Part shown: positions 19,441 through 22,320 of the stretch, piece after piece | Numbering within the stretch: the first letter of the stretch is position 1 | Layout: every line of letters begins with the position of its first letter | From: Ectopseudomonas composti | Lineage (GTDB): Bacteria > Pseudomonadota > Gammaproteobacteria > Pseudomonadales > Pseudomonadaceae | NCBI RefSeq assembly: GCF_001567565.1 | Contig: NZ_LSSW01000013.1 | Coordinates: 124,001 to 188,000, forward strand | DNA length: 64,000 bases | Direction: 5' to 3' | Notes under the pieces: model-generated | The model's database searches: none | The model's input: only the letters and a program-made list of their open reading frames with translations | Told to the model about the DNA's origin: nothing | Translations under genes and position numbers: made by a program

Positions 19441-19974
19441 ATGTCGAATCTGCATGATTGCGCGCAGCGCTACGGCGCAGTTACGCGTTGGCTGCACTGG
19501 GGTATGGCCGTTTTGCTGGGTTGGCAATTTTTGACCGTACTGGCGCATACCCTGATGGAAGACAGCGCTCTGGATAAGTTTTTCTGGGGGACGCACAAGG
19601 CCACGGGGCTGGTGCTCATGGTGCTGGTGGTGGTGCGCCTGCTCTGGGCGCTGTACAACAGCGGCCGCCGACCTGCGCCAGTAAGCTCGCTCGCGCGCAT
19701 AGGCCATCTGGCGTTGTATGGTTTGCTGTTCGTGATTCCCTTTATCGCGCTGCTGCGCCAGTACGGCTCGGGGCGTGAGTTCATCGCTTTCGGCATGACC
19801 GTCATGCCCGGTTTCAGCGATGACAAGATCGAGTGGATGATCGCCCCGGCCAGCCTGTTGCATGGCAATCTCGGCTGGCTGCTGCTGTTCATGGTGATCG
19901 GCCATGCGGCCATGGCTTTCGTCCATCGCCGTCAGGGCGGCGAGGACGTGATGGCGCGCATTATCGGTCGGTGA
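19441..19974 (+). CDS. Cytochrome b561
   Basis: The 177-residue protein has four transmembrane segments and the b561 (CybB) histidine pattern: RWLHWGM near residue 18, GTHKATGLVL in helix 2, LLHGNLGW in helix 3-4 and VIGHAAMAFVHR in helix 4. These histidines bind two hemes, allowing electron transfer from quinol or superoxide across the inner membrane. GAGAGGAACCACC gives a good ribosome site. It stands alone, after the opgGH terminator and before a probable sRNA. Confidence 0.87.
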   Translation: MSNLHDCAQRYGAVTRWLHWGMAVLLGWQFLTVLAHTLMEDSALDKFFWGTHKATGLVLMVLVVVRLLWALYNSGRRPAPVSSLARIGHLALYGLLFVIPFIALLRQYGSGREFIAFGMTVMPGFSDDKIEWMIAPASLLHGNLGWLLLFMVIGHAAMAFVHRRQGGEDVMARIIGR

Positions 19975-19984
19975 TTCAGCCAGC

Positions 19985-20052
19985 TATAGCGAATGTCTTA
20001 CACGCCGTGGCGGTAAGCGCCGCTTTTGCCGAGACTGGCCAGTCATTAATCT
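19985..20052 (+). promoter_or_regulatory. Putative promoter with GacA-like upstream site for the sRNA
   Basis: TATAGC-N6-CTTACA at 19985-20002 has the spacing of the GacA upstream site TGTAAG-N6-CTTACA, with the right half exact and the left half matching only 3 of 6. A -35-like TTTTGC (20024-20029) and a -10-like TAATCT (20047-20052), 17 bp apart, would start transcription near 20059. The evidence is pattern matching by eye. Confidence 0.4.
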
Positions 20053-20058
20053 ACACAC

Positions 20059-20167
20059 ATCCCCTGCAGCGACGGAGCGCTGAGGATCAAGGAAGATGAC
20101 CAGGCCATGAATGGCCACCGACAGGATGTCGGATGGTTGGGAAGAAACCCGCTTAGGCGGGTTTTTT
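20059..20167 (+). ncRNA. Candidate Rsm/Csr-type regulatory sRNA
   Basis: No protein is encoded in the 280 bp between cytochrome b561 and the helicase gene, yet the segment has a promoter-like start and a strong intrinsic terminator, defining an RNA of about 110 nt. It contains six GGA motifs (20074, 20084, 20091, 20124, 20131, 20140). One is displayed in the loop of the perfect hairpin CGAC-AGGAT-GTCG (20120-20129 region), the standard RsmA/CsrA binding form, and GGATGT matches the known selected consensus. RsmX, RsmY and RsmZ have the same size, motif density and terminator. Family membership is inference; I do not recall any of the named Rsm RNAs at this location. Confidence 0.5.
20145..20167 (+). 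terminator. Rho-independent terminator
   Basis: AAACCCGC (20145-20152) and GCGGGTTT (20157-20164) pair over 8 bp with a TTAG loop and run into six T residues. It ends the candidate sRNA. Confidence 0.85.
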
Positions 20168-20254
20168 GTTGCCTGCAGAAAAGTGCTTACGCGTTCCTGC
20201 CGATGAAGGGCAGCAGAGCCAGCCGCTTGTTCATGGGAGCGCCTGAAGTGCCGA

Positions 20255-22171
20255 TCAGCCTGCAGCTTGCGCGATTGGCCGGCTCGCTGCCAAGCATTGC
20301 GTGGCGCCCTGGGCCTTGCGCGTGTACCACAGCACCCGGCTCACGCCGCGGGTGATGGCTACGTAGGCCAGGCGCCGGGCTTCGTCCTGCATGGCCTGGT
20401 CGTAGTTGCCGGCGAAGAAGCCGCACTGGGCGTAGAGCGCATTGCGCAGCGGGTGTTTGTCCACGGGCAGGCAGTCGTCGAGGATGATTGCCACCTCGGC
20501 CTGCAGGCCCTTGGCGCGGTGGATGGTCATGGTTCTGACCGGCAGTTGTTTGTCGAGCTGTGCGCGCACCTGCTGCAGCGGCTCGTTGCGCCGGCTGAGC
20601 AGCAGCACGGCGGTGCGGTCGGCATTGGGGCGCTGGCTGACGTGCTGGCACTGCGCGGTGATTTCCTTGAGCAGCGCCGGCAGGCCGCTGGCCAGGTCGA
20701 AGCGCTGGACCAGCCTGACGCCATGGTCGCCCGGTTGCATGGCCTTGGCCGCGACGCAGGTCTTCGCCTGCTTGCTGTGCACCTCGGCCAGCACCTTCTC
20801 GCCATCGCGGATCACTGCTTCGATGCTGCGGTAGTTGGTGCTCAGCAGCAGGGTGGCGCTCTTGCCGCGTCCACGGCTGGGGAAGTGCCGGTCGAAATCG
20901 ATGAACAGTTCCGGCGAGCTGCCGCGCCAGCCGTAGATCGACTGCCAGTCATCGCCGATGGCCATCAGGCTGATGCGCTCACCTGCAGCGTGCAGGCGGC
21001 GATGCACGGCCTGCAGCCAGAGCACGATCTGTGGCGAGATGTCCTGAAACTCGTCGATCAGCAGGTGGCTCAGGGCGAGCAGGGCAGGCCCGGGTTTGCC
21101 GGCATCGGCACTTTGCAGGCGCTCGCTCAGTTGCGCGAAGGCACCGTTGAAGCTGACCAGGCCCTGACTGTGCAGCAGGGCGGTGAAATGTTCCTGGAAA
21201 CGCTGCATGGCCTCGATGAAGTCACGCTCGCGGGGCGCGCAGCCGAGCGCCTTCACATCCAGGCGGTCGAGGCGAATGCCCAAGCTCTCGGCGAAATCGA
21301 TCTGCCCGTGCAGCAACTCAAACAATGGCAGGGCAGTGAACTCGCCGGGCAGCTTGCAGGCATCCAGCGGCGCCCGGGGTTTGCCCTTTGGTGGCTCTTC
21401 CGGGGCCGGTGAGCCAAGCAGGCGGTGAGTCAGGGCGCGAAAGCGCGCATCGGCAGCGTAGGCGTTCTGGTAGGCCTGCTTGAGCAGGCGTTGTTGCGCG
21501 GGGCGCAGGCGAGCGCCAGCGAGCGGGTTGTCCGGCTCGTCGCTGGGGTCGTCCAGTTGTTCGAACCAGCGCGGGTTGCCCAGGCGCTCCTTGGCCAGTG
21601 CGGCCATCGCAGCGTGGAAGGTGCGTACGCACTGGCGCGCATCGTGCGGGTAGTGCCAGAAGCCCAGCAGGTGTTGCAGGCGTTCGCGCAGCTCGCTGCA
21701 CGAGGCGTTGGTAAAGGAGATCACCGTCAGCCGCTTTGGGTCGACGTCCAGGTGACAAAGCAGGAACACCACGCGCAGCACCAGGGTGCTCGACTTGCCC
21801 GAGCCGGCGCCGGCGAAGATGCGCGCCAGCGGGGCGCGGCAGAGGATCATCGCCCACTGTTCGTCCGACGGTGCGCCGATCAGACCGGCGCTCACCGCCT
21901 GGGCCACGCGTTCGCGCATGGCCTGCACCTGGGCGTCTTCGATCTTCAGTCGGGTCGCGGGGTAGATACCAGCAGGGCCAGGTTTGCTCTTGGCCGATTT
22001 GCTGGCGGTCGCTTTCTTGCTGCCGGTGGATTTCTTCTTGCTCTGCTTGCGTGCGGGTTTGCGCGGCTGCGCGGCTTCGCGCTCGGCGCGCAGGTAGGCG
22101 GTGGTGCGGGGGAAGTAACGGGCGAGGGTGCTGGACAGCAGTTGTTTGTAGTGCGCGACGGCAGAAAGCAT
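20255..22171 (-). CDS. UvrD/Rep-family DNA helicase, helicase IV-like
   Basis: The 638-residue protein has the superfamily 1 helicase motifs: Walker A GAGSGKSST near residue 119, Ia VISFTNASCSELRERL, motif II LLIDEFQDI near 370, motif III GDDWQSIYGWRG, motif V TIHRAKGLQAEVAIIL and motif VI YVAITRGVSRVLWY. GDDWQSIY resembles E. coli HelD. An unusual lysine/serine-rich linker (around residues 35-65) precedes the core. It probably unwinds DNA during repair. The start is taken as MLSAVAHYKQ at 22171; the ribosome site is weak and an upstream start at 22234 cannot be excluded. Confidence 0.85.
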   Translation of the reverse strand: MLSAVAHYKQLLSSTLARYFPRTTAYLRAEREAAQPRKPARKQSKKKSTGSKKATASKSAKSKPGPAGIYPATRLKIEDAQVQAMRERVAQAVSAGLIGAPSDEQWAMILCRAPLARIFAGAGSGKSSTLVLRVVFLLCHLDVDPKRLTVISFTNASCSELRERLQHLLGFWHYPHDARQCVRTFHAAMAALAKERLGNPRWFEQLDDPSDEPDNPLAGARLRPAQQRLLKQAYQNAYAADARFRALTHRLLGSPAPEEPPKGKPRAPLDACKLPGEFTALPLFELLHGQIDFAESLGIRLDRLDVKALGCAPRERDFIEAMQRFQEHFTALLHSQGLVSFNGAFAQLSERLQSADAGKPGPALLALSHLLIDEFQDISPQIVLWLQAVHRRLHAAGERISLMAIGDDWQSIYGWRGSSPELFIDFDRHFPSRGRGKSATLLLSTNYRSIEAVIRDGEKVLAEVHSKQAKTCVAAKAMQPGDHGVRLVQRFDLASGLPALLKEITAQCQHVSQRPNADRTAVLLLSRRNEPLQQVRAQLDKQLPVRTMTIHRAKGLQAEVAIILDDCLPVDKHPLRNALYAQCGFFAGNYDQAMQDEARRLAYVAITRGVSRVLWYTRKAQGATQCLAASRPIAQAAG

Positions 22172-22320
22172 GCGGTGATGATGACCTGGCTGGCAAAGCC
22201 GGAATGATAAGCCCTGGGGCGCGATGGCAGGCAACGGTGGCGCTTCGATAAATGCGCAACTTTGTGCAAGCGCGAGATGTGCGCGGGTTCCAGACTGTGA
22301 TCAGTCTTGGGAGATAGCCG

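Follow-up and report, generated by a model that had tools for sequence, protein, structure and literature searches.

A copy of the small RNA gene rsmX between cytochrome b561 and helicase genes

Positions 20059 to 20167 on the plus strand of the window (the whole 64-kb stretch of DNA that was analysed) are, with a probability of about 0.96, an rsmX gene that possesses its own terminator and probably encodes a GacA-driven sponge RNA for RsmA. The Rfam covariance model of this family (RF02144) matched here with 76.2 bits (gathering cut-off 56; E 3.1e-12), and the alignment covered the model in full length (positions 1–114 of 114). This was the only match above gathering when the window was compared to Rfam 15, and a search with RF02144 in 14 control genomes yielded no match over the cut-off. 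The families isrB, isrK, istR and P9 scored below gathering at this place and were rejected.

The RNA rsmX is well known from Pseudomonas and is thought to titrate RsmA while GacS/GacA is on. In a preliminary description of this DNA, an Rsm/Csr-sequestering small RNA of the RsmX/Y/Z design was proposed, with a size of about 110 nt and located between the genes for cytochrome b561 and a helicase, and a covariance model search was recommended. The RF02144 match bears out the design, with sequestration itself being probable by analogy; the coordinates given there were accurate, the neighbours were named correctly and the match spans about 109 nt. The description had also taken the RNA to be unlisted and an extra member, which does not hold if a new RNA is meant: the gene is rsmX itself, an ordinary copy of a known family and not an unlisted kind of RNA, and extra rsmX copies are known in Pseudomonas. 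Excerpts of two papers (PMC4950607, PMC7911923) report more than one copy in P. syringae, in P. mendocina ymp and in P. stutzeri. The cytochrome b561 gene (19441–19974, plus strand; Pfam PF01292, E 2e-22) is a neighbour that does not belong to the RNA; on the other side, a gene for a UvrD-type helicase lies on the minus strand (20255–22234).

Six GGA motifs are present in the RNA, starting at positions 20074, 20084, 20091, 20124, 20131 and 20140. All six motifs of the previously noticed cluster were thus located, and 20073–20143 is the sole place on either strand of the window with six GGA per 70 nt; a chance cluster was considered as an explanation and rejected. According to the fold prediction, hairpin loops fully contain three of these motifs (CAGCG-ACGGAG-CGCUG, AUC-AAGGAA-GAU and CCGACA-GGA-UGUCGG), and the remaining three are at least partly paired. 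The last of these hairpins had been described as a perfect 4-bp hairpin with GGA in its loop; the loop GGA is there, but the stem CCGACA/UGUCGG comprises 6 bp. The RNA as a whole folds with −46.8 kcal/mol (z = −4.12), and none of 200 shuffled sequences folded as well. Covariation was weak among the close relatives, with a double change in 1 of 29 pairs, and was too low in this alignment to carry the structural argument, which therefore depends on the Rfam model. Between 5 and 8 GGA motifs occur in each of the 23 aligned rsmX copies.

The RNA ends in an intrinsic terminator (20145–20167, plus strand), composed of the hairpin AAACCCGC-TTAG-GCGGGTTT and a T run whose last base is 20167. The hairpin leading into the T run, as the preliminary description had proposed, is evident from the sequence, the Rfam alignment and the fold. 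A simple consensus scan of positions 19900–20260 on both strands reported no terminator, not even that of rsmX; by our own reading, it missed the latter because the stem rule extends into the T run.

Upstream of the RNA, an upstream activating sequence (UAS) for GacA was recognized by sequence comparison at 19985–20002 (plus strand). It is of the rsmX type (TATAGC-GAATGT-CTTACA) and starts 74 nt before the RNA, whose start at about 20059 was derived from the covariance model. Compared to the palindrome TGTAAG-N6-CTTACA, the element scores 9 of 12. Among the 127,966 18-mers on both strands of the window, 12 reach this score and none a higher one; since the score is equal on both strands, these represent six places. 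The imperfect left half had led to the site being called partial. Comparison with other rsmX loci of the genus speaks against this wording: in 30 loci (L016–L045, represented by the top match per genome in 30 of the 40 rsmX-bearing genomes, and not by all 73 matches), the left half is TATRGC in 26 and the full TGTAAG in one (L037), and the right half is exactly CTTACA in 28 and CCTACA in the other two. The 18-bp element begins 72–75 nt upstream of the RNA in these 30 loci; for L040 and L043, where a contig end truncates the flank, the start was adjusted before the UAS were counted. A similar GacA site, TATAGCGAAACGCTTACA, is given for P. brassicacearum in an excerpt of PMC7911923. Because TATRGC and CTTACA are typical of rsmX loci of the genus and resemble the P. 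brassicacearum site, TATAGCGAATGTCTTACA of the window can be regarded as the usual rsmX-type site; judged from these sequences, TATRGC-N6-CTTACA is the usual rsmX form of the GacA site and not a degraded one. This is useful when genomes are scanned for Gac-controlled RNAs by the palindrome alone, as neither rsmX gene of this genome was found with the pattern TGTNNG-N6-CTTACA.

The −10 hexamer TAATCT was located at 20047–20052 (plus strand), and all six columns are invariant in 17 b561-linked orthologues. A simple consensus scan with a −35 box detected no sigma-70 promoter on either strand of 19900–20260. Activator-dependent promoters may do without a −35 box.

When genome contigs were scanned with the b561 protein, 26 loci were obtained (L073 coincides with L059, and the two were counted once). 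rsmX was found above gathering in all 16 closest loci, which show 69–92% identity and are all labelled Pseudomonas, and it is located 84–87 nt downstream of the last b561 sense codon. In the stretches fetched for the 10 more distant loci (47–60% identity), no rsmX was present. Near one distant b561 homologue, in Pseudomonas paralactis, a TwoAYGGAY RNA (RF01731), a family of the Rfam clan of rsmX, was observed (L068, 1249–1375). In the 17 aligned orthologues (the window included; L062, which is without rsmX, was left out and L072, a G012 locus, is not in the alignment), the mean majority fraction was 0.955 for the RNA, 0.905 for the UAS (13 of 18 columns invariant) and 1.0 for the −10 box. Outside these elements it amounted to 0.679 between the stop codon and the UAS, 0.799 from the UAS to the −10 box and 0.588 at 20175–20250. 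Conservation with drifting flanks, which had been named as a check on the gene, was thus observed.

The genus was represented by 59 genomes sampled from a larger group. rsmX was detected at E ≤ 1e-5 in 40 of them (the genome under study included) with 1–5 copies each, and 36 genomes from elsewhere in the order gave no such match. The window copy ranks 57th by score among the 73 rsmX matches listed for the 59 genomes, the best of which reached 125.7 bits. A b561 homologue (E ≤ 1e-20) occurs in 4 of the 59 genomes, and in 3 of them, our own included, rsmX lies beside it. A search of one open-access paper collection found no paper naming rsmX together with cytochrome b561.

The genome contains a second rsmX gene (G000:C21:265897-266002, 71.1 bits) after a Band_7/SPFH gene. 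Its UAS, TATGGC-AAAAGG-CTTACA, is located at the same distance as that of the window copy, and the first hairpin of this second RNA is unlike that of the b561-linked copy. All further rsmX matches in the genome were sub-threshold (29.3 bits or lower). Furthermore, rsmY (C32, 107.5 bits) and rsmZ (C17, 126.5 bits) were detected, both preceded by perfect TGTAAG-N6-CTTACA sites, and these two are the only sites of the strict pattern TGTNNG-N6-CTTACA in the whole genome. Sub-threshold matches at the E limit of this search were also obtained in the control genomes (rsmX in 7, rsmY in 10 and rsmZ in 8 of 14), none of them over the cut-off. The protein partners are present as well: a single CsrA/RsmA was found at E ≤ 0.001 (NCBIfam NF002469, 118.8 bits, cut-off 73), and the gene for GacA (NF007018, 317.9 bits, cut-off 280) adjoins uvrC. 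The window copy therefore adds to a set of two rsmX, one rsmY and one rsmZ above cut-off, as opposed to one detected CsrA/RsmA.

Alternatively, the RNA could be no more than a 3' UTR that is freed from the cytochrome b561 mRNA by processing, as proposed for RsmW of P. aeruginosa, which is described as processed in an excerpt of PMC4950607. It lies on the b561 strand and starts 84 nt past the b561 stop codon, and the simple scan detected neither a terminator between the two (the rsmX terminator was missed, too) nor a sigma-70 promoter. However, the invariant −10 box and the conserved UAS are located in this interval, the second rsmX of the genome follows a Band_7 gene and has the same type of UAS at the same distance, and rsmX is present in 40 of the 59 genomes of the genus, whereas the b561 homologue occurs in only 4 of the 59 (in 3 of them with rsmX beside it). 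Hence, we consider a mere 3' UTR very improbable. Assignment to rsmY, rsmZ or a new Rsm family has practically no probability: the match to rsmY (RF00195) at this place is weak (29.6 bits, cut-off 57), PrrB_RsmZ (RF00166) gave no match there at E ≤ 1, and clear rsmY and rsmZ genes exist elsewhere in the genome.

A decaying, non-functional rsmX copy would be compatible with the presence of the second rsmX and with the absence of one loop motif, as the window copy has UGA in place of a loop GGA that 9 of the 17 orthologues possess (GCCAUGAAUGGC; alignment position 50). This GGA is equally absent from 7 of the 16 relatives, though, and six GGA motifs are left. The fold is strong, and throughout the species group the UAS, the −10 box, the RNA and the terminator show conservation between drifting flanks, so that decay seems about as improbable as the 3' UTR. 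The evidence is best explained by an rsmX gene with its own promoter and terminator.

Past the rsmX terminator, the DNA forms a mosaic that differs between species. In 7 of the 16 loci, the next tested gene is the helicase gene, as in the window, and in another 5 it is an MFS transporter gene. Three loci (L046, L047 and L050) show the order rsmX, GGDEF gene, second rsmX with its own UAS, and MFS gene. Here, a near-identical pair of rsmX copies, each with a UAS of its own, surrounds a GGDEF diguanylate cyclase gene on the opposite strand (L046 4619-6244, L047 4619-6244, L050 4619-6292). The remaining locus, L059, has the GGDEF and MFS genes with a single rsmX; a hidden second rsmX was sought between these two genes and not found. 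In the window, a possible remnant of the 3' end of an MFS transporter gene, 15 codons in length, is located at 20187–20234 (minus strand). It is short and suggestive: its end, LALLPFIGRNA*, shares 7 of 11 residues with the MFS tail LALLAFIGKER*. This MFS-like tail suggests that a deletion may have occurred between rsmX and the helicase gene. The downstream DNA flank of the window is most similar to those of L049 and L048.

The flank after the single rsmX of L057, L048, L049 and L060 resembles that after the second rsmX of L046, L047 and L050, a likeness partly due to both flanks reaching into the MFS gene. The b561-linked rsmX might be a point of recombination and insertion in this species group, for which we use our own label 'oleovorans/mendocina', and the gene arrangement in the window might have arisen by collapse of an rsmX pair and a further deletion; we put this forward tentatively and hold it to be rather unlikely. 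If it were true, recombination between the two rsmX copies would excise the GGDEF gene, and therefore the dosage of the sponge RNA and a c-di-GMP gene would be gained or lost together. Two loci do not fit the simple form of this recombination: L059, which has the GGDEF gene and lacks a second rsmX, and L053, in which the MFS gene follows a flank that resembles the first-copy flank of L050 instead. At L072 (2374-4248, G012), the apparent start (GTGCG) of a group II intron lies four bases past the T run of rsmX. Insertion beside terminators is typical of group IIC introns.

By analogy with its studied relatives, it is likely that the window copy is transcribed, depends on GacA and titrates RsmA. 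Phosphorylated GacA would act on the 18-bp element at 19985–20002, which together with the −10 box would give rise to an RNA of about 109 nt ending at its own terminator. This RNA would display GGA motifs in hairpin loops and linkers and bind RsmA/CsrA dimers, and the titration of RsmA would release the mRNAs repressed by it. rsmX would then act in trans on the RsmA regulon and not specifically on the adjacent cytochrome b561 or helicase genes. A specific tie to cytochrome b561 is not assumed because most of the rsmX-bearing genomes sampled are without a close b561 homologue. For P. brassicacearum, an excerpt of PMC7911923 describes rsmX-2 as GacA-dependent, 110 nt long and preceded by a similar UAS.

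In its size, its GGA hairpins and its terminator, the RNA resembles the members of RF02144 (RsmX of P. protegens CHA0, RsmX-1 and RsmX-2 of P. brassicacearum, RsmX1–5 of P. syringae), and it shares with this family the full-length match to the model and the rsmX-type UAS at equal distance. Unlike these members, the window copy follows a cytochrome b561 gene, scores below most matches of the genus and lacks one loop GGA. Multiple rsmX copies are known from P. mendocina ymp, which by our reading belongs to the same species group (Moll et al. 2010, cited through excerpts of PMC4950607 and PMC7911923), and three records with the label P. mendocina (L053, L054 and L056) also carry the b561-linked rsmX. 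With RsmY (RF00195) and RsmZ (RF00166), the RNA has the proposed mode of action and the control by GacA in common. Unlike rsmX, RsmY and RsmZ are encoded here by separate genes with matches to their own models and with perfect palindromic UAS upstream.
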